Shown: piece by piece, positions 10,169 through 34,063 of the stretch
How positions within the stretch are numbered: position 1 is the first letter of the stretch
Layout of the letters: each line of letters begins with the position of its first letter
Source: Spongiibacter nanhainus
GTDB taxonomy: Bacteria; Pseudomonadota; Gammaproteobacteria; Pseudomonadales; Spongiibacteraceae
Direction: 5' to 3'
DNA: 64,000 bases
Assembly: GCF_016132545.1 (NCBI RefSeq)
Contig: NZ_CP066167.1
Coordinates: forward strand, 124,001 to 188,000
Position numbers and translations under genes: made by a program
Notes under the pieces: generated by a model
What the model saw: only the letters and a program-made list of their open reading frames with translations
What the model was told of the DNA's origin: nothing
Databases searched by the model: none

Positions 10169-10870
10169 GTGAATGAAATATTGCGTGAGTATGGTGTTGC
10201 TAATCACAGTAGTTGGGGGCACAAGCCCCCGCCCCACTCGATGGCTACGGCAACAGGATTAGCAGCGGTGAAGCAACGAAAAGTATTTTGTCTCGGTTTT
10301 CATAAGACGGGTACCACCAGCCTGGGCGTCGCACTTGATATGCTTGGCTATCGGGTGTCCGGCGCTTTTGGGGTCAATGACCCGGATATTGCTGAGCACG
10401 TTGTGGAACAGGCGCTGAAAAGGGCGACTGACTTCGACGCCTTCCAGGATAATCCTTGGCCGATTCTTTACCGCGAGTTAGACGCGGCCTTTCCCGGCAG
10501 TAAATTCATTTTGTTGTTGCGGGATGCAGATGCCTGGATTCAAAGTCAGGTCAAGCACTTTGGCCAACGCGAGACGCCGATGCGGCGCTGGATTTACGGC
10601 GACGAACACGGCTGCCCGGCAGGCAATGAAGCGGTGTATCTGCGCTGTTACCAGACACATAATCAGTCAGTATTGACGTATTTTTCCCAGCGCCCCGACG
10701 ATCTGTTAGTGCTGAATTTGGCGGAGGGTGAAGGTTGGCAAGCGCTCTGTGCATTTCTCGATGAGCCGGTTCCGGCCGCACCTTTTCCCCATGCCAATAC
10801 CGCCAGTAAACGCAAGAAGCGCAATTTACTAGCCAGTCTCAAGCGAGCTCTGACGCTAAGGTCGGTGTGA
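10169..10870 (+). CDS. Sulfotransferase family protein
   Basis: Predicted PAPS-dependent sulfotransferase of up to 233 residues. The 5'-phosphosulfate loop is seen in FCLGFHKTGTTSLGVAL and the 3'-phosphate strand in FPGSKFILLLRDADAWIQSQ. These match the Sulfotransfer_4 type, which is short and acts on unknown acceptors. The start is uncertain: ATG at 10169 gives a 24-residue leader without homology signals, and ATG at 10241 (MATATGLAAVKQRKVF) is closer to the conserved core; neither has a strong ribosome site. The last 32 bases overlap the 3' end of the convergent sulfotransferase gene. Confidence 0.8.
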   Translation: MNEILREYGVANHSSWGHKPPPHSMATATGLAAVKQRKVFCLGFHKTGTTSLGVALDMLGYRVSGAFGVNDPDIAEHVVEQALKRATDFDAFQDNPWPILYRELDAAFPGSKFILLLRDADAWIQSQVKHFGQRETPMRRWIYGDEHGCPAGNEAVYLRCYQTHNQSVLTYFSQRPDDLLVLNLAEGEGWQALCAFLDEPVPAAPFPHANTASKRKKRNLLASLKRALTLRSV

Positions 10871-11597
10871 CGGCAGCATGTTGGCAAATATCCAGCTTCA
10901 TCAGGCGCTTATAACGCTGTAGTGCAAGCGATGGTACCTGCTTGAGATAGTTTGGTTTGTTGCCACCTCTGCTTTTGTCGGCCTCAAAACCTTGCCGCGG
11001 ATAGCGCACATTTCGCTGTGGCCCCTCCAACATTTGCGGTGAAAAGGGGATATCCAAGCTGTTACACAATGTCTGCAATACCGCTTCCGGCTGCGCCACC
11101 AAGCCCTCAAAGGAAACCAATACAGGCTGGGCAAGGTTGGGGTTTGAGTGAGCTTCCTCTATCAATTGCTCAACTATCTCCATATAGCGACACCAGCGAT
11201 ACACTGCAATACCGGTAGTGCGGTGTTCACGGGTTTTAATAGAGTGAATCACCGCGTTGGGGTCCCGCAAAACACACACTGGCTGCAGCGGGGCGCGCTG
11301 CATATAGTGAACCAGACTCAATTCACTGCGCGGTATCAGGTTATAGAATTTGCGCTTGCGCAGAAAGCCATTTAAACCGGCGAGTCGCAGCGACCAGTGC
11401 CAGTGTTTTTTCCACTCCAGATGATTGGGGACGCACAGTTTGTTGCCGCGAATCTTACCGCCGGTCACTCTAAATACCGCGCCGGTGAATTCCTCGTCCA
11501 GCATGGCGATCTCCGGGTGAGCGCCAAGGGAGGCGGTCAGTAAAGTGGTGCCGCCTCGGGCGGTGCCCATGACCAAAAGCGTCGAGTTGCTGTCCAT
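10839..11597 (-). CDS. Sulfotransferase family protein
   Basis: Second predicted sulfotransferase, 252 residues, not closely similar to its convergent neighbour. The phosphosulfate loop is LVMGTARGGTTLLTASLGAHP at residues 8-28, and the 3'-phosphate binding part is PVCVLRDPNAVIHSIKTR near 107-124. The acceptor is unknown. In bacteria such enzymes sulfate polysaccharides, lipids or small molecules. The ATG at 11595-11597 is followed directly by the core fold, so the start is credible. Its 3' end overlaps the neighbouring sulfotransferase by 32 bases in antisense. Confidence 0.85.
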   Translation of the reverse strand: MDSNSTLLVMGTARGGTTLLTASLGAHPEIAMLDEEFTGAVFRVTGGKIRGNKLCVPNHLEWKKHWHWSLRLAGLNGFLRKRKFYNLIPRSELSLVHYMQRAPLQPVCVLRDPNAVIHSIKTREHRTTGIAVYRWCRYMEIVEQLIEEAHSNPNLAQPVLVSFEGLVAQPEAVLQTLCNSLDIPFSPQMLEGPQRNVRYPRQGFEADKSRGGNKPNYLKQVPSLALQRYKRLMKLDICQHAAVTPTLASELA

Positions 11598-18773: not shown

Positions 18774-20324
18774 ATGACAGCGCCTTCTCCACAGTCCCTG
18801 CCTGACGATATCGATGCACTGAAGACTCTGCTTCTGAAGAAGGAGCAGCGCATCCACCTGCTTGAAGAACAGATTCGCTTGTTCAAGCAAAAGCGCTTTG
18901 GGTCGAGCAGTGAGAAGAGCGACCAGCAGGCTGAGTTATTTAACGAGGCCGAGTTGATCGACATGATGGAGTCGGCGTCGGAAGCCGAAGCGCTTGAGTC
19001 GGCAGCGCCAGCTCAGCGAGAAGCGGCTCCCCGTAAAGCCAAGCCCGGCCGCAAGCCGCTTCCGGCAGACCTGCCCCGCATTCGCATTGAACATGACCTG
19101 CCCGACGCCGACAAAGTCTGCACCTGTGGTTGTGTGCGTGACTGTATTGGCGAAGACACCAGCGAACAGCTGGACATCATTCCGGCCAAGGTTCAGGTAC
19201 TGGTGAACGTTCGTAAAAAGTATGCCTGCAAACAGTGCGAAGGCAACGTCAGTACTGCACCACTGCCGCCGCAGCCGATTCCCAAGAGCAAGGCCAGCCC
19301 GGGCTTGCTGGCCCACATCGCTGTTGCCAAATACCAGGATGCACTGCCGCTGTACCGGCAGGAGGGTATTCTCGGGCGCAGCGATATCGATCTCCCCCGC
19401 CATACCTTAGCGCTGTGGATGGTCAAGGCGGGCCAGTTGGCACAGCCGCTGATCAATCTGTTGCAGGATCACTTGTTAAGCTATCCGGTACTGCGGTGCG
19501 ATGAAACCACCGTGCAGGTGTTGAAGGAGCCGGGTAAGGAGGCTCAGAGCCACTCCTATATGTGGGTGCGGGTCGGCGGGCCGCCCACGCAAACCACTAA
19601 ACTTTACCATTATGCTGACAGTCGCCGGGGAGAGGTGGCCCAGCAGCTGTTGATGGGCTACCAGGGCTATGTGCAGACCGATGACTATGCGGGGTACAAC
19701 GGGGCCTGCGCCCAAGCGGGTATTACCCAGCTGGGCTGTTGGGCACATGCCCGCCGCAAGTTTGTGGAAGCGCAGAAGGCCGTCGGCAAGCAGAAGAAGG
19801 CAGGTAAGGTCGATATGGCGGTGAGCATGATCGCCAAGCTCTACGCGATCGAGAAGCGGGCAGAGACCCTGTCGCCGGAAGCGCGCTACACCCTGCGTCA
19901 GCAGGAGAGCGTTCCCCAGCTCCAAGCCATCCGCGTCTGGCTGGACAAAACCCTGCATACTACTCTGCCCAAAGGATTACTGGGCAAGGCTCTGAGCTAT
20001 CTGGAGAAGAACTGGAGCAAACTGACCGTCTACACGCAGGACGGTCGGCTCGGCATAGACAATAATCCGGCAGAGAACGCGATCCGCCCCTTCGTGGTGG
20101 GGCGCAAGAACTGGCTGTTCAGCGCCTCGACCTCGGGCGCCACCGCCAGTGCGAACCTGTACAGTCTGATTGAAACGGCCAAGGCGAATGGCCTGGAACC
20201 CTTTGCTTACCTGAAGCGGGTGTTTACTGAATTGCCCCGAGCACAAGGCCTTGAAGACATCGAAGCGTTACTGCCATGGCAGATGCCTACAAAGGCTCCC
20301 GAGGTAGTGAAGGTGGCCTCATGA
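18774..20324 (+). CDS. tnpC: IS66 transposase TnpC (Orf3)
   Basis: 516-residue DDE transposase. A leucine-zipper region (LLLKKEQRIHLLEEQI) and SSSEKSDQQAELF start the protein. A zinc-binding part follows, with CTCGCVRDC and a later CKQC. The catalytic triad is visible as RCDETTVQV, QTDDYAGYNG and NNPAENAIRPF, the last followed by VGRKNWLFSASTSGA and the IS66_C tail. Full length and intact. It overlaps the next small gene by four bases (ATGA). Confidence 0.96.
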   Translation: MTAPSPQSLPDDIDALKTLLLKKEQRIHLLEEQIRLFKQKRFGSSSEKSDQQAELFNEAELIDMMESASEAEALESAAPAQREAAPRKAKPGRKPLPADLPRIRIEHDLPDADKVCTCGCVRDCIGEDTSEQLDIIPAKVQVLVNVRKKYACKQCEGNVSTAPLPPQPIPKSKASPGLLAHIAVAKYQDALPLYRQEGILGRSDIDLPRHTLALWMVKAGQLAQPLINLLQDHLLSYPVLRCDETTVQVLKEPGKEAQSHSYMWVRVGGPPTQTTKLYHYADSRRGEVAQQLLMGYQGYVQTDDYAGYNGACAQAGITQLGCWAHARRKFVEAQKAVGKQKKAGKVDMAVSMIAKLYAIEKRAETLSPEARYTLRQQESVPQLQAIRVWLDKTLHTTLPKGLLGKALSYLEKNWSKLTVYTQDGRLGIDNNPAENAIRPFVVGRKNWLFSASTSGATASANLYSLIETAKANGLEPFAYLKRVFTELPRAQGLEDIEALLPWQMPTKAPEVVKVAS

Positions 20325-20644
20325 AACGGGTGATGAAAATCGACATCGATCATCTCGATGCCGACGAACTGATGGCGTTGAACCAGCGTATTGTTGAGCG
20401 CCTGAAGATGCTGGAATCGATGCACGCACACCAGTCGATGATGCAGTTCCACCCCGGCGCTCGGGTCAGCTTCAGCTCCCCGCAGGGCGACCGGGTCCTC
20501 GCGACCATTATGAAATTCAATCGCAAGACGGTAACCGTGGTGACGGACAGCGGGCAGCGCTGGAATGTCTCACCGCACCTGCTCTCGGCGGTCAAGGATG
20601 CCACGCCGTCGTCCGTGATCGATGGGCGATTAGAAAACGACTGA
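20321..20644 (+). CDS. Small IS66-associated protein of unknown role
   Basis: 107 residues starting at ATG 20321, which overlaps the tnpC stop, so translation is probably coupled. The middle (FHPGARVSFSSPQGDRVLATIMKFNRKTVTVV) looks like a small beta-barrel with a KOW- or SH3-like turn. The N-terminus is helical. It ends 30 bases before the right inverted repeat. It is not one of the three canonical IS66 genes; passenger or accessory genes at this place are known in some IS66 elements. Function unknown. Confidence 0.75.
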   Translation: MKRVMKIDIDHLDADELMALNQRIVERLKMLESMHAHQSMMQFHPGARVSFSSPQGDRVLATIMKFNRKTVTVVTDSGQRWNVSPHLLSAVKDATPSSVIDGRLEND

Positions 20645-24740: not shown

Positions 24741-25634
24741 TTAGCGCAACCCCCCTCGCCAAGCCCGTGGCGAGCGCCCGCAATGGCGTTTAAAGGCAGC
24801 AGAGAAGGCGGCGCTCGTTTGGTAGCCCAGTTCCCTGGCTATTTCCCCTATCGGCCTTTCGTTTGTTGCTAGCAACGTGCGGGCCCGGGCCATCAGCACT
24901 TTGTGGGCATAGGCGCTGGGGCTGTCGCCCACCGTGCTGCGAAAAGCCCGCATAAAATGAAAGCGACTGAGACCGCATAGCGCGGCCAGTTCATCCACGC
25001 CGGGGGCGGCACCCGGCTGGTTCATGCGGCTCAGTACCCGGCGCAGGTGACGGGGTGCCAGCCCGCCGCGATGGGATAGCTCCCGGTGACGGGCGTCGGC
25101 AAGGTAGCGAGACAGGTCGACGGCGATGGCGGTCACCAGTGCCTCGATCAATACTTCACTGTCGGCGGCGCGGTCGCTGACCTCATCGGCCAGTCGCATC
25201 ATGGTGTCTTCGATCCGGGGCGCGTGAATATTAAAGCAGGCCTCCAATTGCGCTTCGTTCAGGTCGGCGGGGTCGATACCCCTGGCCCGGAGGCGCTCGG
25301 CTGAAAAACGACAGCGAATGGTGTGGTAGTGGCCACCGGACACCTGTACTTCAAAGGGAATGCCTGCTGGTCTGAAGTTGAGGGTGCCAAACTGGCAGAA
25401 GCGGGGCGTTTGAAAGTGGGGGACCCGGCCGACAGCTTCCTCCAACAGTGGCGACAGGCCCAATGAAATGACCGATGCCGACTCGGTAACGGTGAGGGTT
25501 TCCGCCTGCAGGTCGGGAAAGGCGCACAGCTCCACCGTCGCGCTGGGCACAATGGCGCTGTGGCGAACTATATTTGCATCCTGCTGAGCTTGCAGCAGGC
25601 TGATTGGTTTTGCGGTGGCCTGGGTCATCAGCAC
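24741..25634 (-). CDS. AraC-family transcriptional regulator
   Basis: 297 residues: an N-terminal ligand-sensing domain and a C-terminal double HTH of the HTH_18 type (VDELAALCGLSRFHFMRAFR and IGEIARELGYQTSAAFSAAFKRHCGRSP). It is divergent from the operon starting at 25778 with 143 bases between the starts, the usual layout for a local activator or repressor. The N-terminal domain resembles those of regulators of alkanal/aromatic catabolism only in general shape. ATG 25634 or 25628 could be the start. The likely ligand is the substrate or an intermediate of the mutase pathway. Confidence 0.88.
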   Translation of the reverse strand: MLMTQATAKPISLLQAQQDANIVRHSAIVPSATVELCAFPDLQAETLTVTESASVISLGLSPLLEEAVGRVPHFQTPRFCQFGTLNFRPAGIPFEVQVSGGHYHTIRCRFSAERLRARGIDPADLNEAQLEACFNIHAPRIEDTMMRLADEVSDRAADSEVLIEALVTAIAVDLSRYLADARHRELSHRGGLAPRHLRRVLSRMNQPGAAPGVDELAALCGLSRFHFMRAFRSTVGDSPSAYAHKVLMARARTLLATNERPIGEIARELGYQTSAAFSAAFKRHCGRSPRAWRGGLR

Positions 25635-25777: not shown

Positions 25778-26773
25778 ATGCCTGAGGCGACACGTCAGGT
25801 AGAGGCGGCCGAGCAGATTACCGCCCAGTCAGTACTGTCCGACTATGAGATAGCGGGAAAAACCGTCATCGTAACCGGGGCCACGTCCGGCGTCGGCCGG
25901 GCCATTGCCGAAGCCCTGGCGGGTGCCGGCGCCGATGTGACCTTGGCAGTCAGGGATGTCCTTGCCGGACAGCGGGTGATGGCCGAGTTGGTGGCGGTAT
26001 ATCCCCGCAGCCGTATTCGGGTCGAATCTATCGATCTGCTGGATTTGCATTCAGTGAGGGCATTCGCTGAACGTTGGGGGCAGCAAGCCCTGGATCTGTT
26101 GTTTAATAACGCTGGGCTTATGGCGCCGCCATTGAGCTATACCGACCTGGGCTTTGAGAGTCAGTTGTCGGTAAACTGCCTGGCGCCAATGCTGCTCTCT
26201 CGCCTGCTGTTGCCCAATATGCGGCTGGCACCGTCTCCCCGTATTGTGACCGTCTCGTCCGGGGCTCACCACTTGGCGCGACTGCGCCTGGATGACCTTC
26301 ACTATCGCCGTCGAGACTACGACAAGTTTGAAGCCTATGGGCACTCTAAGTTGTGCGCGAATTTGATGGCGGTCGCCTTTAGTCAACAGTATGCGCCGAT
26401 CACTATGAACTTGGTCACTCCCGGCGCGGTGGCCAGCAACCTGGCTCGTCACACCACGCTAGAAGATGCCATTAAGCTGGGGTGGGTCAGAGAGGATGGC
26501 TCCCTGGCGGTGGGAGAAATGCGCAGCCCGGAAGTGGGGGCTGCCTCTCCGGTATGGGCCGCCGTGACACCAGAGCTGGAGGGCCGCGGCGGCGTCTATA
26601 TCGAAGACTTGGCAGTGGCGCCCGTCTTCGACTCGCCGCGGGAAGACTGCTGGGGTGTCACCGCCGAATCCCTGGACCCAGACTTGGCGGGAGCACTGTG
26701 GAATCGGCTGTTGGCCCACATAGCGCCCTTTGAAGAGTCGGCCGACAACGCGCCCAGTGAGGTGAAATTGTGA
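25778..26773 (+). CDS. Short-chain dehydrogenase (retinol-dehydrogenase-like)
   Basis: 331-residue SDR. The cofactor motif IVTGATSGVGRAIAEAL is at about residue 31, LFNNAGLM near 108, the serine strand VTVSSGAHH near 160 and the catalytic YGHSKLCANL (Tyr-x-x-x-Lys) near 187. The extended length and the PLSYTDLGFESQLSVNCLAPMLLS region recall WWOX/retinol-dehydrogenase-type SDRs that act on hydrophobic alcohols or ketones. AGGTGGAGCG precedes the ATG. The stop overlaps the start of the mutase gene, so it heads the operon and probably supplies or removes a keto/hydroxy group near the mutase step. Confidence 0.88.
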   Translation: MPEATRQVEAAEQITAQSVLSDYEIAGKTVIVTGATSGVGRAIAEALAGAGADVTLAVRDVLAGQRVMAELVAVYPRSRIRVESIDLLDLHSVRAFAERWGQQALDLLFNNAGLMAPPLSYTDLGFESQLSVNCLAPMLLSRLLLPNMRLAPSPRIVTVSSGAHHLARLRLDDLHYRRRDYDKFEAYGHSKLCANLMAVAFSQQYAPITMNLVTPGAVASNLARHTTLEDAIKLGWVREDGSLAVGEMRSPEVGAASPVWAAVTPELEGRGGVYIEDLAVAPVFDSPREDCWGVTAESLDPDLAGALWNRLLAHIAPFEESADNAPSEVKL

Positions 26774-28458
26774 GCCGATTGTTTAACGACCACCTCGAGC
26801 GTTGGGAGCAAGAAACCCGGGCGCCTTTTGTGGCGGCCAATCCCGAGCGGCGGGATCACTTTACCACCCAGGCACTGCGTTGGCCGATCAATCCGCTTTA
26901 CACCCCCGCGGATTTGGAGGAAGTCGGTTTTGACTACCTCAAGGATCTGGGCTTCCCCGGCGAGTATCCCTATACCCGCGGCACCAAAGCCAATGGCCAT
27001 CGCTCCAATTTTTGGACCATGACCCAGGTCACCGGTTTTGGTAAGGGCGAGGATTGGGCCAAGCGCGCCAGGTACATGTTGGATCAGGGGCTGACAGGCC
27101 TAATTCTGGAGTACGACCTGGCCACCACCAATGGCTACGACAGCGACGACCCGATTGTAGAGGGTGAGGTGGGTCGCGCCGGCATGGCCCTGGACAGTCT
27201 GGAAGATTTGGAGAAAGCCTTCGACTTTCCCTTCGATAAGCTCGACTACCTGATGAGCGTCTGCAACGCCCCTCAGCCAGTCAACCTGGCAATGATCATC
27301 GCGGCGCTGGAAAAGAAAGGTGTAGACCCCAGTGACTTTGTGTTGCATATCGTCAACGGGATTTTGATTGAGTACACCTGTGTGGGTCGTTATATCTACC
27401 CGCCGGAGCATGGCCTTCGCCTTGCCACCGACTGTATTGAATACATTATTCGCCATCACCCCAACTGGGCGCCAATTTCTATCATTTCTGCTCAGCTGCA
27501 ACCCGCCAAAGCCAATCCCGTGCAGGAAATCGCCTTTAGCTTTGCCATCGCCTGCGCGTATATCGATGCCACCTTGGAGCGGGGCTTTGATATCGACACT
27601 GTGGCGCCCTATTTCCACTTTGTGATTAATGTGGATATGGACTTCTTTGAGGGCATTTGTAAGTTGCGGGCCTACCGCAAGTGCTGGGCAAGACTGATGA
27701 AGGAGCGTTACGGTGCCACCCGGGCCGAGGCGCTGCAGATACGCATGATGACCTCACCCACCACCATTGCGTTGACCTTGCAGCAACCACTAAACAATAT
27801 CGGTAGGTTGGCGATTATGGCCACGGCCTGTGCGCTGGGTGGCGCCGGCGACAATATGACCACTCCCCTTCACGATGAGGCCCACGCTTTGCCCGCCGAG
27901 GAAGCGATACGGGTCGGCGCCGCTCTGCAGCATATCGTCGCCCACGAGACCGGCGTAGCGGAAACCGTCGATCCCCTTGCCGGCTCCTACTATGTAGAGA
28001 CACTGACTCGGCAAATCGAAGACGCTGCCTTTGAGGAAATGGAAAAAATCTTCGATATGGGTGGCGCCCTAAGCGCTATTGAGCAGGGCTATTTTCAAGG
28101 TGCCTTGGGGCGGGAGCAATACCAGCGCAACAAGGAGCTTGAGGAGGGCCGCCGCAAATGGGTGGGCGTGAATCACCTCACACTGGAAGAGGCGCGCCGG
28201 GAGATCGACATCTTTCGCCAGGATGAGTCCATGGAGGAAGAGCAGGTTGCCAAGGTACGGGCTTTGCGGGAGCGACGTGATCAAGCTGCGGTGGATCGTG
28301 CACTAAGCGCCGTGCGTCAGGCCGCACAGCGGGGCGACAACATGGTGCCGCCCTGTCTGGAGGCGGTAAAAGCCTATGCCACCCATGGTGAAATCTGCCA
28401 CGCAATGCGGGATATCTTTGGGGAGTACTATGCCGATAGCCAACTGGGAGGATTGTAA
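26770..28458 (+). CDS. Adenosylcobalamin-dependent acyl-CoA mutase, large subunit (divergent)
   Basis: 562 residues of the methylmalonyl-CoA mutase large-subunit family (TIM barrel), without a fused B12 domain; the next gene supplies that. Length equals that I recall for 2-hydroxyisobutyryl-CoA mutase large subunits. Family landmarks: YPYTRG (67-71), GYDSDDP (122-128), GRYIYPPEHGLR (206-217), DPLAGSYYVE and a C-terminal GVNHL. By hand alignment to P. freudenreichii MCM, three usual active-site residues are changed: Tyr89 is His77, Arg207 is Val205 and His244 is Gln242. Glu114 sits where, as I recall, the hydroxyacyl mutase has Asp117. The substrate is therefore probably not methylmalonyl-CoA. 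It starts at GTG 26770, overlapping the SDR stop. Confidence 0.88.
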   Translation: MSRLFNDHLERWEQETRAPFVAANPERRDHFTTQALRWPINPLYTPADLEEVGFDYLKDLGFPGEYPYTRGTKANGHRSNFWTMTQVTGFGKGEDWAKRARYMLDQGLTGLILEYDLATTNGYDSDDPIVEGEVGRAGMALDSLEDLEKAFDFPFDKLDYLMSVCNAPQPVNLAMIIAALEKKGVDPSDFVLHIVNGILIEYTCVGRYIYPPEHGLRLATDCIEYIIRHHPNWAPISIISAQLQPAKANPVQEIAFSFAIACAYIDATLERGFDIDTVAPYFHFVINVDMDFFEGICKLRAYRKCWARLMKERYGATRAEALQIRMMTSPTTIALTLQQPLNNIGRLAIMATACALGGAGDNMTTPLHDEAHALPAEEAIRVGAALQHIVAHETGVAETVDPLAGSYYVETLTRQIEDAAFEEMEKIFDMGGALSAIEQGYFQGALGREQYQRNKELEEGRRKWVGVNHLTLEEARREIDIFRQDESMEEEQVAKVRALRERRDQAAVDRALSAVRQAAQRGDNMVPPCLEAVKAYATHGEICHAMRDIFGEYYADSQLGGL

Positions 28459-28459
28459 G

Positions 28460-28906
28460 GTGACTGCACCTTTGTTTTCCCGTCAGAAGCGTCCTCTGCG
28501 TGTGTTGTTGGCCAAGCTGGGGATGGATACCCATACCGTGGGGGTCACTGTCATTGCGCATGCCTTGCGAGAGGCCGGTATGGAGGTGATCTTCACTGGC
28601 CTTAAACAAACACCAGAAAGCGTTGTGGCCGCCGCGATTCAGGAAGATGTGGATGTGGTGGGGATATCCACCCTGTCCGCTGGCCATACCCGCAGCCTGC
28701 CGAAATTAGCGCGCTTGTTAAAAGAGGCTGGAGCTGGCGACAAGCTATTACTTGCCGGCGGAGTCATACCCCAGGAAGACCAGCCCGCCCTGGAGGCCGC
28801 CGGAGTGGATCAAATCTTTACCATGGGTGCAGATACCCGGGACATCGTGGCTTATCTCGAGAATTGGTGGGCTGAAGCCAATGAGGCGGGCAGGGCGGAT
28901 GAGTAG
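28460..28906 (+). CDS. B12-binding small subunit of acyl-CoA mutase
   Basis: 148 residues of the cobalamin-binding Rossmann-like fold. The base-off/His-on motif D-x-H-x-x-G is present as DTHTVG at residues 23-28, followed by the VVGISTLSAGHT loop and LLAGGVIP, which bind the nucleotide tail. It pairs with the large subunit one gene upstream, as in isobutyryl- and 2-hydroxyisobutyryl-CoA mutases. The GTG start at 28460 has GGAGG seven bases upstream and lies one base past the mutase stop. The longer frame from 28376 overlaps the mutase gene and is not used. Confidence 0.93.
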   Translation: MTAPLFSRQKRPLRVLLAKLGMDTHTVGVTVIAHALREAGMEVIFTGLKQTPESVVAAAIQEDVDVVGISTLSAGHTRSLPKLARLLKEAGAGDKLLLAGGVIPQEDQPALEAAGVDQIFTMGADTRDIVAYLENWWAEANEAGRADE

Positions 28907-29903
28907 TGCGGCTAAGGAATCAGCGGATTTTGTCGAGCGGCTTATGGCTGGTGATCTGGCTGCCGGGGCGCGGGTTATCCGCTGGCTGGATGATGGCGAC
29001 CCCCGGGGGCCGTCGGCGCTGTCTCAGCTATCGCCCCACACTGGTCGGGCCCACGTGGTGGGTATTACGGGACCTCCGGGTGCCGGTAAATCCACGCTAA
29101 CGAATAGCCTTATTAGTGAATTGCGCTGCCGGGGCTACCGGGTTGGGGTCTTGGCAATTGATCCTTCCAGCCCCTTTACCGGTGGTGCCATTCTAGGGGA
29201 TCGGGTGCGGATGTCCCAGCATACCCTTGATCCGGATGTGTTTATTCGCTCTATCGGCACCCGGGGTCAAGCCGGTGGGTTGTCCCGCTCTACCCATGAT
29301 GCCTGCCAGGTGCTGGATGCCATGGGCTATCAGGTGATTCTGGTTGAGACGGTGGGCGTCGGTCAGGACGAAATTGATGTGGTGGCCCTGGCTCACACCA
29401 CGCTGATAGTTGGTGTTCCGGGCTTGGGAGATGAAGTACAGGCGGTCAAAGCCGGGCTGATGGAAGCCGGGGATATCTTTGTGATCAATAAAGCTGACCG
29501 GGATGGCTTTGATGCGGTATGGCGCCAGTTTGAATTGATGTTGCACCTGCGGGAGGAAGCGCGCCTTCGCTCGGGTGACGCAGACGATACATCGCTCTCC
29601 CCTTGGGTGCCGCCACTGTTGTCGGCGGTGGCCAGCCTCAATCAGGGCGCGGCGGGTATCGTCGACGCGCTGCAATCCCACCGACGGTTTTTGCAAGACA
29701 GTGGTGACTTTGCCCGCCGCACCCGGCAGCGTTTGCGAGCACAGTTCTATACCCTGCTTCAGGAAGCCGTGTTGAACGAGGTGGACTCGCTTTTTGGTAA
29801 AGAGGATATGCAGCGGTTGGAAAAAGGCGCGTGGGACCCTTACACCGCCGCCCAGCAAGCACTGCAGAACTGGCGAAAACACACTGGAGCGGCGTCATTG
29901 TGA
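28899..29903 (+). CDS. MeaB/ArgK-type G-protein chaperone of the mutase
   Basis: 334-residue P-loop GTPase that loads and protects adenosylcobalamin in acyl-CoA mutases. Walker A is GITGPPGAGKST near residue 55; AIDPSSPFTGGAILGDRVRM, VETVGVGQDEIDV (Walker B region) and VINKADRD (N-K-x-D) follow. All match the MeaB family. ATG 28899 overlaps the preceding stop by eight bases, showing tight coupling. A dedicated chaperone next to both subunits indicates a self-contained mutase system distinct from the organism's central methylmalonyl-CoA mutase, if it has one. Confidence 0.95.
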   Translation: MSSAAKESADFVERLMAGDLAAGARVIRWLDDGDPRGPSALSQLSPHTGRAHVVGITGPPGAGKSTLTNSLISELRCRGYRVGVLAIDPSSPFTGGAILGDRVRMSQHTLDPDVFIRSIGTRGQAGGLSRSTHDACQVLDAMGYQVILVETVGVGQDEIDVVALAHTTLIVGVPGLGDEVQAVKAGLMEAGDIFVINKADRDGFDAVWRQFELMLHLREEARLRSGDADDTSLSPWVPPLLSAVASLNQGAAGIVDALQSHRRFLQDSGDFARRTRQRLRAQFYTLLQEAVLNEVDSLFGKEDMQRLEKGAWDPYTAAQQALQNWRKHTGAASL

Positions 29904-30508
29904 TGAAGTCTATTTGTACACTGACCCGTCGAGCGGACTTCAGTCGGCGACAATTCCAAGATTACTACGAAAACCAGCACAGTCTCCTGGCGATACAGCA
30001 CTTCCCCTTTGTGGGCTATGTGCGTAATCACGTGGTGGGCGGCGGGGACATTGGCTTTGACACCATCTCCGAGTTTTGGGCTGTGGATGTAGACAAACTG
30101 GCCAGCCTGATGAAGGGCCCAGTGGGCAAGTTACTGCAGGAGGATGAGCGCCGCTTTATGGATCAGTCCTTGATTGCACCGGGCTATGCCCGGGAAACGG
30201 TAATTAGCGACGGCCAGGGACCCAGTCGGCGCTTTGCGCTGTTGTTGAACTGGGAGGGCGAGGATTTTGACGTCGTGAATTGGGCCAGGGCCAATGTGGC
30301 AAATCAGCCGGCGGTATCGGTCGACCAAGTCGATGCCTGGCAGCAGCCCGCTTTTCCTGCCAAGGCTGTGGTCTGGACCCCGGTTTCTGATCTGCTGTGC
30401 AATGTTCCAGACAGTGTACAGGCCGATCTTATCGAGGTAGAGCGGGTAGAGACACCGCCGGCCCAGTTGCTGGGTAATACTGATGACAGCGAGCGGCTGC
30501 CGATATGA
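29903..30508 (+). CDS. EthD-domain protein
   Basis: 201 residues with an N-terminal EthD-type ferredoxin-like alpha+beta barrel: CTLTRRADFSRRQFQDYYENQHSLLA carries the conserved R-x-x-(F/L) and HSLLA features, and VGYVRNHVVGG the next strand. EthD proteins are found in ether, polyketide and steroid-type catabolic loci. Their biochemical role is mostly unknown, but some are cyclases, dehydratases or lyases. The C-terminal half may hold a second, degenerate copy (RRFALLLNWEGEDFDVVNWARA). It overlaps MeaB by one base (TGATG) and the next SDR by four (ATGA), so it belongs to the mutase operon. Confidence 0.75.
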   Translation: MKSICTLTRRADFSRRQFQDYYENQHSLLAIQHFPFVGYVRNHVVGGGDIGFDTISEFWAVDVDKLASLMKGPVGKLLQEDERRFMDQSLIAPGYARETVISDGQGPSRRFALLLNWEGEDFDVVNWARANVANQPAVSVDQVDAWQQPAFPAKAVVWTPVSDLLCNVPDSVQADLIEVERVETPPAQLLGNTDDSERLPI

Positions 30509-31296
30509 TGGAATTGTCGGGGCGAATGGCTGTAATCACCGGTGCGGCCAGTGGTATTGGCCGGGCGCTCACCGAGCAGGCCCTGGTCGAGGGAATGACA
30601 CTGGCTTTGATCGACCAGAATCGAGAGCAACTGGATTTGCTGGTTAGTTCTATGCCGGCCCACGCTGAAGTGATCAGTGCCTGTCTGGATGTGCGGGACA
30701 GGCAGGCACTTGAAGCCTTCGCCATGCAGTGTAAATCGGCATCCATTGCGCTGTTGTTTGCCAATGCCGGAGTAATGCGTGCAGGGCCATCATGGGAGTT
30801 GGGCCAGGAAGACTGGTCCCAGGTCTTTGACGTTAATGTGGTGGGGGCGATGAACACGGTCAGCGCGTTTATGCCCCACTTGTTGGATCAGCAAGCGGCA
30901 TCACGAGTCGTGTTTACCGGCTCGATATCAGCGTTTACCGCCAGCCCCAATATCGCCTGCTATTCCGCAAGTAAACATGCATTGTGGGGCATTGCCGAGG
31001 CCATGGAACTGGAGCTAAAAGAGCGAGCTGCGCCGGTGGCGGTGTCCTTTATTGCGCCATCCGGTGTAAAGACGCCTCTGGCGTCAGAGCCACTGGAAGG
31101 TCCTGCAGGCGCCAGTCAACAATCCATTCACGACTTGCTGGATCGCTTTGGCGTGCCCGCTGAATCGGTGGCACAGGCGACCTTTGAAGGCATTGCCCAG
31201 GAAAAATTTTGGATATTGCCCCACCCGGAGTTCAAGCCTGGGTTACAGGCTCGGGTGGCGCGAGTGGTGGAGGAGTTGCCGCCATCGACGAGCTAG
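30505..31296 (+). CDS. Short-chain dehydrogenase/reductase
   Basis: Classical SDR of 263 residues: cofactor loop VITGAASGIGRALTEQAL, FANAGVM, serine strand VFTGSISAFTASPN and catalytic YSASKHAL (Tyr-x-x-x-Lys). Last gene of the overlapping mutase operon. With the first SDR of the operon it gives two alcohol/ketone oxidoreductases flanking the mutase genes, as expected for preparing or finishing a carbon-skeleton rearrangement. Either of two adjacent ATG codons at 30505/30508 may be used. Confidence 0.9.
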   Translation: MMELSGRMAVITGAASGIGRALTEQALVEGMTLALIDQNREQLDLLVSSMPAHAEVISACLDVRDRQALEAFAMQCKSASIALLFANAGVMRAGPSWELGQEDWSQVFDVNVVGAMNTVSAFMPHLLDQQAASRVVFTGSISAFTASPNIACYSASKHALWGIAEAMELELKERAAPVAVSFIAPSGVKTPLASEPLEGPAGASQQSIHDLLDRFGVPAESVAQATFEGIAQEKFWILPHPEFKPGLQARVARVVEELPPSTS

Positions 31297-31456: not shown

Positions 31457-34063
31457 GTGAAATCCGTCTTTCCATCGGTCTGTCTATCCGTCGTAATGTG
31501 CGCCAGCCAGCCCCTGTATGGGCAAGCTGAAACAGAAGCGTCGGCAAGTAAAAAAAGCCGTTACGGCACCTTGGAGGAGGTGCTGGTTACGGCCCGAAAG
31601 CGGACTGAGAATATTCAGGAGACTCCTGTCGCGATCACCGCTCTGGGGGGCGAAGCACTTCGGGCCCAGGGCATCGTCTCCGCTCAGGAACTCAGTAAAT
31701 CGGTGCCCAGCCTGCAGATCAACGACAGTACCGCGCCGCAGATATTTATTCGGGGTATCGGCCAGCGCTCTGGCTTGGCCCGTTTTGATCCCTCGGTTAG
31801 CGTCTATCTAGACGGCATTTTTATTCCCCGGCCCGATGGGCAACTGCTGGACACCATCGATATTGCCAATGTTCAGGTATTGCGGGGACCCCAGGGCACC
31901 CTGTTTGGCAAGAACAACACCGGTGGGGCGCTGGTATTCAAGCTGGTTAAGCCCGGTACAGAAGATGCCGATTATGTCGAAGGCGCGGTGGGCGAATACG
32001 CTGATCAGCGCTTTCGCGCTGGATTCAACGTGCCCATCAGCGACGACCTGGACGGTCGCATAGCGCTTGCCGCCCACCGTCGCGACGGCTACTTGCGGGA
32101 TCAATCCGGTGGCGAAAACCAGTCTATTGACCGGGTGTCGGCGATCTTTCAAACCGACTGGCGGATTAACGATCGTATCAATATGGAGTCGCTGGCCTAT
32201 CTGGCGCGGATCCGGGAGCACTATCCTTCATACCACTGCAAGCTGATCAATGAGGAAGCGCTGTTTGTCAATGGACTGGGAATCTTGTGGGCCGGTGACA
32301 CTGACCCCTCCAACCCTCGCGCATATCAGGACAATTGTAATGCCAACCGCCGGGGCAACCTGCGGGACTTGGTTACCAATCAGGGCGACAGCCAGCAGCA
32401 GAACAAAGACCAGGATGTGATGATGCTGGCCTCTACTCTAAACTGGGAGATCAACGAGGACACTAGTTTAAAGGCCATTTTGGGCTACCGCGATGCCACC
32501 AAAATGGGGCCGCAAACCCAATCTGACGATGGCGGACCCCGCCCCTATTTCCGCGCCCTCGTCTTGGGTGACAACGAACAGGAATCACTGACTGGCGAAC
32601 TGCAATTAAATGGCAGCCTGTTTAACGGCGATGTGGAGTACACGGCAGGTATCTTTCTCCAGCGGGAATTCAAAAGCGAACGATTTGTTACCGCCAATCA
32701 GCTGATCGGTGCTGAGGCCCTGCCTTTTATCGCTCTCGCCGCAGGTCAGTCCGGCGCTGATATCAGTGCTCTCGATCCGGTGTTGGATCTCCTGTCTGTA
32801 CCAGGTGGAACCCTGCCGGTAGTTGCCGGCGCACTGCCCATATCCACTGTCCAGGATTTTGAAATAGACGGCGAGACCTACGCCATATTCTCCCAGGCTA
32901 CCTGGCACCTCACCGATAACCTGGAGTTCACCTTTGGTGGCCGCTACACCGAAGAGAAGCGGGAATCCGATCTGTTTACCCGAACCGCCGATAGCGAAGC
33001 GATCTCTACCTTGATCAGCTCCACTAACCCACGCTTTCTGCCGGTGTTGCCGTCGATGGCGGCCTTCGGCTACCTGGGCAGTTGGTCTGAAGACCCCATA
33101 CAAATCGCCAACGACATTCTGGCCGAGGCCTTCCCCGGCGATATCGGTGCGCCCTTAAATCCCGCCACTAAGGATGAGCTGGAAAGCACTTTCAGGGAGT
33201 TTACACCCATGGCCTCGCTGGCCTGGATTGTCCCGGAGCGCTGGCTATTCGACGCCTTTGTGGATACCGCAATGGTGTATGGCACCTGGAGTAACGGATT
33301 TAAATCCGGATTTCAGGAACCCTTTGGTCAGGACGGTTTGATCGAGGTGGCGCCGGAGACCCTGGAGAATTTCGAGCTGGGCTTTAAGATCGACGCGCTC
33401 AATAAGTCGCTGCGACTCAATGTCGCGCTGTACTCCATGACCTTTGAGAACATGCAGTTAATTACTGTCAGTGTCGATTCAGCCAATACACTGGTGGTGA
33501 GCTCACAAAACGCCGGGGAGGCCACCATCGACGGTGGCGAGTTGGAGCTGCAATGGCTGCCCAGCGAAAACCTGATGCTCAGTTTGAACTACAGTAACAA
33601 TAACTATGAGTTCGTTGAATTTGACGACTTCGATTTGAAAGCGCTGGCCTTGACGGGTCAGCAAGTGCCCATTGACCGCAGCGACGAAGAGTTTGCCGTC
33701 TCCCCTGAGGAGACCGCGTCGCTGGGTATTCAATACACCTTTTACAGTGACGACATTGGCGTTATCACGCCACGTCTGGATATCAGCTATAAGTCTGAGG
33801 TGTATATGGGGTTGGATGACGATGCCTGGGAGGTGGCCAAACGAGACCCGGATCTTGTCTATGCCGATGCCTATACACTTATCGATGCCCGAGTCAGCTG
33901 GTTTCAACCAAACAACAATCTGACGCTGAGCGCCTACGTTAAAAACCTAACTGATAAACGCTATGACGTGGGCGCGGTGGCAACAGGAAGCTCTATCGGC
34001 ACCAATGTGCAGGTATTGGGCGAACCACGGATGATTGGCATAGAAGCGCGTAAAACATTCTAA
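31457..34063 (+). CDS. TonB-dependent outer-membrane receptor
   Basis: 868 residues. A signal peptide (MKSVFPSVCLSVVMCASQPLYGQA) is followed by the plug domain beginning LEEVLVTARKRTENIQETP, with VLRGPQGTLFGKNNTGGAL at its end. A 22-strand barrel then ends in an aromatic residue (EARKTF). The start is GTG 31457 with GGAGGGTGAAGA upstream; the 38-codon longer reading lacks a signal peptide. This is the sphingomonad/gammaproteobacterial receptor type often found in loci for hydrophobic substrates. It lies 160 bases after the mutase operon and just before a P450, so it may import the substrate of that pathway. The spacer holds a GCACCT/AGGTGC inverted repeat. Confidence 0.93.
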   Translation: MKSVFPSVCLSVVMCASQPLYGQAETEASASKKSRYGTLEEVLVTARKRTENIQETPVAITALGGEALRAQGIVSAQELSKSVPSLQINDSTAPQIFIRGIGQRSGLARFDPSVSVYLDGIFIPRPDGQLLDTIDIANVQVLRGPQGTLFGKNNTGGALVFKLVKPGTEDADYVEGAVGEYADQRFRAGFNVPISDDLDGRIALAAHRRDGYLRDQSGGENQSIDRVSAIFQTDWRINDRINMESLAYLARIREHYPSYHCKLINEEALFVNGLGILWAGDTDPSNPRAYQDNCNANRRGNLRDLVTNQGDSQQQNKDQDVMMLASTLNWEINEDTSLKAILGYRDATKMGPQTQSDDGGPRPYFRALVLGDNEQESLTGELQLNGSLFNGDVEYTAGIFLQREFKSERFVTANQLIGAEALPFIALAAGQSGADISALDPVLDLLSVPGGTLPVVAGALPISTVQDFEIDGETYAIFSQATWHLTDNLEFTFGGRYTEEKRESDLFTRTADSEAISTLISSTNPRFLPVLPSMAAFGYLGSWSEDPIQIANDILAEAFPGDIGAPLNPATKDELESTFREFTPMASLAWIVPERWLFDAFVDTAMVYGTWSNGFKSGFQEPFGQDGLIEVAPETLENFELGFKIDALNKSLRLNVALYSMTFENMQLITVSVDSANTLVVSSQNAGEATIDGGELELQWLPSENLMLSLNYSNNNYEFVEFDDFDLKALALTGQQVPIDRSDEEFAVSPEETASLGIQYTFYSDDIGVITPRLDISYKSEVYMGLDDDAWEVAKRDPDLVYADAYTLIDARVSWFQPNNNLTLSAYVKNLTDKRYDVGAVATGSSIGTNVQVLGEPRMIGIEARKTF

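Follow-up and report, generated by a model that had tools for sequence, protein, structure and literature searches.

Which substrate is handled by the cobalamin-dependent mutase whose genes lie at positions 25778-31296 of this stretch of Spongiibacter nanhainus DNA? The window, here meaning the whole analysed stretch of 64,000 nucleotides, was previously read from its letters alone, and this preliminary description noted six overlapping or nearly touching genes with a divergent AraC gene. Coordinates and library scans agreed with this layout: the operon consists of six intact genes on the same strand, encoding a short-chain dehydrogenase (SDR1), the large subunit (mutL) and the B12-binding small subunit (mutS) of a mutase of the methylmalonyl-CoA mutase (MCM) superfamily, a MeaB-type GTPase chaperone (meaB), an EthD-domain protein and a second short-chain dehydrogenase (SDR2). 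As judged from sequence comparisons, large subunit, B12 subunit and chaperone make up a complete adenosylcobalamin (AdoCbl)-dependent carbon-skeleton mutase, and mutL represents a distinct deep subfamily of its superfamily in which the CoA-holding residues are mostly lost. The substrate that we tentatively place first is a free steroid-like ketone.

The folds and motifs that had been named for the three mutase proteins were all recovered. MutL matched PF01642 with 512 bits (cut-off 22.1), indicating a substrate-binding barrel homologous to that of MCM. Its best solved relative was 2-hydroxyisobutyryl-CoA mutase (HCM; 4r3u_A, 380 bits), while human MCM reached 288 bits, and the active-chain model TIGR00641 scored 481 bits versus 144 bits for the beta-chain model TIGR00642. 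MutS, with 4r3u_C as its best solved relative, carries the sequence DTHTVG, an instance of the DxHxxG motif of which D, H and G were kept in 22 rows with at most one exception each; a GTG start was taken for this gene, an in-frame ATG at 28376 being the alternative. MeaB contains the Walker A sequence GPPGAGKST as well as NKAD, and is taken to serve the mutase of the window. The host genome, a single contig of 4.08 Mb, also encodes an ordinary MCM with canonical residues and an adjoining MeaB gene at ~2.05 Mb (L024). The set in the window is therefore a second, self-contained mutase system.

To place mutL among its relatives, we used a scan of contigs from 84,980 species, which detects close relatives only and returned 23 loci at 71-87% identity, from Zhongshania, Haliea, Halioglobus, sphingomonads and several metagenome-assembled genomes. 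Together with the window and one member at 60% identity (L029), these gave 25 family rows. Alignment with MCM and HCM placed Val87 at the position of Tyr89, Val205 at Arg207, Gln242 at His244, Ala241 at Tyr243, Val195 at Gln197 and Glu114 at Asp117 of HCM. Val87, Glu114, Val205, Ala241 and Gln242 were invariant in the 25 rows, so that the three residues that mark MCM (Tyr89, Arg207, His244) are replaced throughout, and Val195 was found in 24; His244, by comparison, was present in 31 of 32 other rows. Since these letters are invariant in the window and the 23 loci and are kept even in the 60% identical member, the changes are not due to chance. The preliminary description had derived the replacements of Arg207, His244 and Asp117 correctly from a hand alignment, but its assignment of Tyr89 to His77 was off by ten residues, His77 belonging to the variable Tyr79 column (His 18, Asn 4, Lys 2, Tyr 1). 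Ile90 and Asp117 are residues that we take to mark HCM, and the Val87 and Glu114 of mutL at these positions are of similar kind without being identical.

Two maximum-likelihood trees, of 41 and 34 rows, united the mutL family and L029 in one clade with 100/100 support in both, the branch leading to it measuring 1.24-1.56 changes per column. In both trees this clade lay outside those of MCM and HCM (the latter supported by 100/100 and 100/99), and three rows called IcmF-like from their length and residues fell elsewhere in the second tree. The proposal of a mutase of unknown specificity with an atypical active site was thus borne out, as the family combines fixed new residues with a position outside the MCM and HCM clades. 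The trees do not fix its sister clade, as long branches may attract, and ECM, PCM and RCM are not named among the outgroups. As a separate observation, five further deep mutase branches (L033, L035, L039, L049, L050) keep Arg87 and His244 and differ at Gln330 and Asn366, with Tyr243 also altered in four of them.

Each of the known systems resembles the window set in part. HCM likewise has separate large and small subunits, provides the best solved match of both mutL and mutS, and has an acid at position 117 and a small hydrophobic residue at the position of Tyr89. However, HCM-like rows were only 35-37% identical to mutL, and they keep Arg82, Arg87, Thr195, Gln197 and His244, which the mutL family as a rule does not. 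MCM shares the fold, the AdoCbl motif and the MeaB partner, whereas Tyr89, Arg207, His244 and most CoA residues are replaced in mutL, which is 34% identical to the host's own MCM. IcmF, a member of the same superfamily with a comparable GTPase partnership, is one fused chain, and IcmF-like rows keep Arg87, Thr195, Gln197 and His244.

The loss of CoA-holding residues was followed at 15 positions of P. shermanii MCM that we take to contact CoA or substrate and of which Arg87 alone is documented by a paper; 11 of them were conserved in 26 outgroup rows. Among the 122 superfamily-conserved columns, the family retains 76, including 75 of 111 outside this list, but only one of the 11 listed (Thr85; Fisher p=2.3e-4). 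By residue counting, Arg87 corresponds to human Arg108, which makes polar contacts with the phosphate and hydroxyls of CoA according to PMC11530693. The Arg87 column held Arg in 31 of 32 other rows and Thr (17), Ala (6) or Ser (2) in the family. The Thr195 and Gln197 columns, uniform in all 32 others, contained His 23, Met 1, Thr 1 and Val 24, Pro 1, respectively, and Ser114, Arg283 and Ser285 are altered as well. The outgroup keeps Arg82 in 26 of 32 rows, a count that takes in the three rows of IcmF type, two others and a second odd mutase described below (L071); in the family, nine different residues were found in 24 rows at this column, which is the second least conserved of 562. As such drift occurs inside a protein with a mean column identity of 85%, the residue at this position no longer seems to serve its function.

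The interior of the barrel changed in the same family. We assigned 23 inward and 18 outward positions on six strands by alternation, the strand choice being guided by an AlphaFold2 model of mutL of poor quality (mean pLDDT 64, 23 rows); IcmF-like rows and L071 were left out. The mean hydropathy of the inward positions was 0.06 [-0.10,0.18] in the 25 family rows versus -1.26 [-1.75,-0.65] in 26 others, whereas that of the outward positions was nearly the same (2.16 versus 2.14). By this measure, the barrel lumen is greasier in the mutL family than in the 26 compared CoA-using relatives, where it is polar.

The chemistry expected of this fold is a radical 1,2-shift. With most of the CoA-gripping residues lost, the mutase may act on a free hydrophobic ring compound. 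MeaB would load AdoCbl onto the mutase, and homolysis would yield the adenosyl radical. The part of the barrel that CoA occupies in relatives would be filled by a free substrate, namely a hydrophobic, steroid-like polycyclic ketone or a hydroxyketone of this type. Its migrating carbonyl would be held by Gln242, which replaces His244, and a hydroxyl by Glu114, much as by Asp117 in HCM. Hydrogen would then be abstracted from a methyl or methylene group adjacent to the alpha carbon and the carbonyl carbon would migrate, in what would be the ketone counterpart of the methylmalonyl shift, while redox conversion of substrate or product could fall to the adjoining SDRs. The active-site evidence (Gln242, Glu114) appears to be best explained by such a ketone or hydroxyketone inside a hydrophobic barrel, and ring ketones beside a methyl-bearing quaternary carbon share the topology of methylmalonyl-CoA. 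More speculatively, a 1,2-acyl shift in such a ring ketone could lead to ring expansion, conceivable substrates being the 17-keto/C18 part of steroids or the 3-keto-4,4-dimethyl part of triterpenoids. We regard as rather unlikely the specific proposal that the enzyme rearranges the skeleton of a polycyclic steroid or triterpenoid ketone not bound to CoA, by a ketone analogue of the methylmalonyl shift that expands or opens a ring at a quaternary carbon and gives aerobic bacteria a B12-dependent entry into such skeletons. If the free-substrate reading holds, a branch without a CoA grip but with B12 subunit and chaperone would open a new substrate class to radical B12 chemistry, and the breakdown of steroids or terpenoids might include a step that depends on B12.

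The gene neighbourhoods were consistent with ring compounds. Among 118 proteins encoded near the mutase in 20 loci, selected by hand from 208, the 25 commonest of 110 families included 29 SDR proteins (SDR1 included), 8 AraC, 6 SnoaL_4, 5 KshA-type Rieske, 5 Sulfotransfer_3 and 2 P450 proteins, while CoA enzymes were represented by 3 ECH and 2 acyl-CoA dehydrogenases. A KshA-SDR-SDR cassette lies upstream of AraC-mutL in five sphingomonad loci (L005, L008, L009, L010, L023), with a TonB receptor in between in L005 and L010, and a KstD-like flavoprotein is encoded in L018 and L022, the latter copy scoring 527 bits against a ketosteroid dehydrogenase model, below its cut-off of 789. KshA_C proteins occurred in 11 of 11 mutase genomes examined, and exceeded the cut-off in 4 of 4 mutase genomes versus 40 of 141 in a sample of the order (p=0.008, a value that ignores kinship). 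The host groups overlap with those of known steroid degraders: PMC5790920 describes steroid-degrading isolates of Spongiibacteraceae and Halieaceae and names sphingomonads as candidates, and one of our loci comes from Croceicoccus estronivorus, the species name of which suggests use of estrone. The 9,10-seco steroid degradation sets (KshA, KstD) thus resemble some of the mutase loci in host groups and in nearby KshA-type or KstD-like genes, but no mutase of the mutL kind was found in the accessible parts of PMC5790920 and PMC7793797; the word 'mutase' occurs 0 times in a term count of the former, and among mutases the latter, in its accessible part, mentions methylmalonyl-CoA mutase alone. Sulfotransfer_3 genes lie near mutL in 7 of the 23 loci, in L017 directly after the EthD gene, and sulfate activation genes were found within ~10 kb of the mutase in four (CysD and CysNC in three, CysNC and CysQ in the fourth; L011, L014, L015, L018). 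Sulfotransferases are, however, common in these genomes (4 to 30 matches per genome across 11 genomes), and we could not fit sulfation into the mechanism. A family of proteins matching DUF1214 also recurs near the mutase (L002, L003, L007, L009, L010, L023).

Several observations weigh against a free substrate. The list of CoA positions was drawn up after several of its columns had been seen to differ; the three IcmF-like rows lack an arginine at Arg82 and carry Asn at Arg283; and 3 of 64 parity choices for the barrel strands, the chosen one included, reach the observed change in hydropathy. KshA and sulfotransferase genes are numerous in mutase genomes, host kinship is uncorrected, and KshA-type genes are likewise found in G063 and G123, two congeners that lack the mutase. 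In two Haliea loci (L004, L006) the mutase is adjoined by genes for ECH and acyl-CoA dehydrogenase, and weaker matches to both accompany an upstream ligase-like gene in L011. In genome G008 the mutS-meaB pair, unlinked from mutL, adjoins an ECH-like gene and has an AMP-ligase-like gene nearby, and on the opposite strand the window itself contains another operon, of CoA type, at 37.9-43.8 kb. Moreover, G008 carries a second odd B12 mutase operon of large subunit, B12 subunit and MeaB (L071/L072, G008:C4:172.8-175.8 kb), with a counterpart in G113. L071 has Glu at 114 (the Asp117 position of HCM) and Val at 205, replaces His244 by Asn, Arg87 by Phe and Tyr89 by Leu, keeps Thr195 and Gln197, and lies among ECH, metallo-beta-lactamase-fold and AMP-ligase genes. 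It forms a long branch of its own, with p=0.44 in the approximately unbiased (AU) test for one clade with the window family. Arg87 and His244 may thus be losable within an apparent CoA pathway, and the free-substrate reading is therefore not secure. A true acyl-CoA mutase with a rebuilt CoA site, for which the substrate would be a bulky CoA ester with a hydroxylated or branched acyl group (for instance one derived from a steroid side chain or ring) and in which Glu114 would serve as Asp117 does in HCM, accordingly ranks almost as likely as a free steroid-like substrate. It would agree with HCM as the closest solved relative and, to our knowledge, with every characterised superfamily member, all of which act on CoA thioesters. 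It does not readily explain why Thr195, Gln197, Ser114, Arg283 and Ser285 are changed besides Arg87 and His244, and why Arg82 drifts, in proteins that remain 71-87% identical across classes, or why AMP-ligase and thiolase are both outside the 25 commonest neighbour families. The hydroxylated or branched acyl-CoA suggested by the preliminary description became less well supported in the same way, as the CoA residues are mostly lost and the neighbours are mainly enzymes of free ring compounds; the CoA-type genes of some loci still speak for it.

The remaining explanations rank far lower. A mutase or eliminase whose substrates are free, hydroxylated non-steroid terpenoids (hopanoids, triterpenoids, diterpenes) would suit the SDR-rich setting, which fits any polycyclic terpenoid, as well as the nearby TonB receptors and the P450 downstream of the operon, whose solved matches were, in order, CYP120 (2ve3), two further P450s and CYP51 sterol demethylases. 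We consider it improbable in view of the KshA- and KstD-like neighbours, which point to steroids, although such folds serve other ring compounds too. That mutL might be a non-catalytic paralogue, like the beta chain of P. shermanii MCM, is more improbable still: many catalytic positions are altered, but a matching B12 subunit and chaperone are kept, even unlinked in two genomes, the new active-site letters are invariant, and nonsynonymous divergence (dN) from the nearest kin is 0.09 with saturated synonymous divergence (dS). An inactive beta-chain homologue was rejected by the far higher score of the active-chain model. Least probable of all is a canonical HCM, MCM or ICM that appeared odd only by hand alignment; the fold and subunit architecture are those of HCM, but Gln replaces His244 in every family row, the separate clade is fully supported and the genome has its ordinary MCM elsewhere. 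Canonical MCM or HCM identity was rejected by the tree placement outside both clades. The label methylmalonyl-CoA mutase, as general family models would give it, is probably wrong for the mutL family, and an acyl-CoA substrate should not be assumed for it.

The conserved core of the locus was narrower than the operon. The preliminary description had proposed a tree, which gave the placement above, and a search for the whole gene set as a conserved neighbourhood. Across the 23 loci, same-cluster partners were mutS in 21, meaB in 20, the EthD gene in 14, a related upstream AraC gene in 11 and an SDR1 orthologue directly upstream of mutL in 7. The full set was found only in the nearest kin, Zhongshania aquimaris (L001), which alone has orthologues of SDR2, the TonB receptor (74% identical) and the P450 (78% identical). 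A suggested link of the mutase to these two downstream genes on the same strand was accordingly weakened to one locus of 23, while seven further loci have other TonB receptors in the vicinity of the mutase. In G008 and G113 mutL is unlinked, yet matching mutS (67-68%) and meaB (61%) occur together elsewhere in the genome, and in the three congeners that lack mutL no match to the B12 subunit exceeds 43%. The mutL-mutS-meaB trio thus appears to behave as a unit. Identity to L001 was highest for mutL (87%), followed by mutS (83%), meaB (67%) and SDR1, EthD and SDR2 (60-63%); dS was saturated for five of the six genes. By profile search, three of the 145 genomes screened from the order (that of the window, G008 and G113) contained the close family, the three congeners lacked it, and the 60% identical member belongs to the window's own family (G095), with no clear pathway discerned in its neighbourhood (L051). 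In the phylum, 17 of 398 genomes passed E 1e-115, only the window's genome exceeding 440 bits. This patchy distribution suggests horizontal transfer of the mutase set. A claim that no described pathway has this gene set agreed with our finding no description of the operon or subfamily in the accessible parts of the open-licence literature searched. Overall, the earlier observations were partly confirmed and their interpretation was partly supported.

Features of the operon and its flanks (window positions; scores from library scans)
Feature	Position	Strand	Evidence and remarks
AraC-family regulator	24741..25634	-	PF12833 E=2.4e-19; divergent from operon
SDR1, short-chain dehydrogenase	25778..26773	+	PRK06196-like, 266 bits vs cut-off 414
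mutL, large substrate-binding subunit, MCM-superfamily AdoCbl mutase	26770..28458	+	PF01642 E=2.2e-153; GTG start
mutS, B12-binding small subunit	28460..28906	+	PF02310; TIGR00640 131 bits over cut-off 57
meaB, MeaB-type GTPase chaperone	28899..29903	+	PF03308; TIGR00750 331 bits over cut-off 241
EthD-domain protein, ~200 aa	29903..30508	+	PF07110 E=3.4e-10
SDR2, short-chain dehydrogenase	30505..31296	+	PF00106 E=6e-42; orthologue only in L001
TonB-dependent receptor	31457..34063 (start approximate; scanned as 31460-34063)	+	PF00593, PF07715
Cytochrome P450	34085..35467	+	library scan; solved-structure matches

Solved relatives of the EthD-domain protein were sought at E up to 1 and none was found; its gene sits between mutL and mutS in three loci (L018, L021, L022). 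The G+C content of the operon was 57.5%, against 47.6% before and 53.3% after it, which is weak evidence since other parts of the window reach 58-60%. Elsewhere in the window, a weak Sulfotransfer_3 match was obtained for an open reading frame on the minus strand at 10839-11597 (genome 135037-135279), and an open reading frame for an IS66-like transposase with a small partner, named by eye from the translations, lies at 18774-20644, ~5 kb upstream of the operon.

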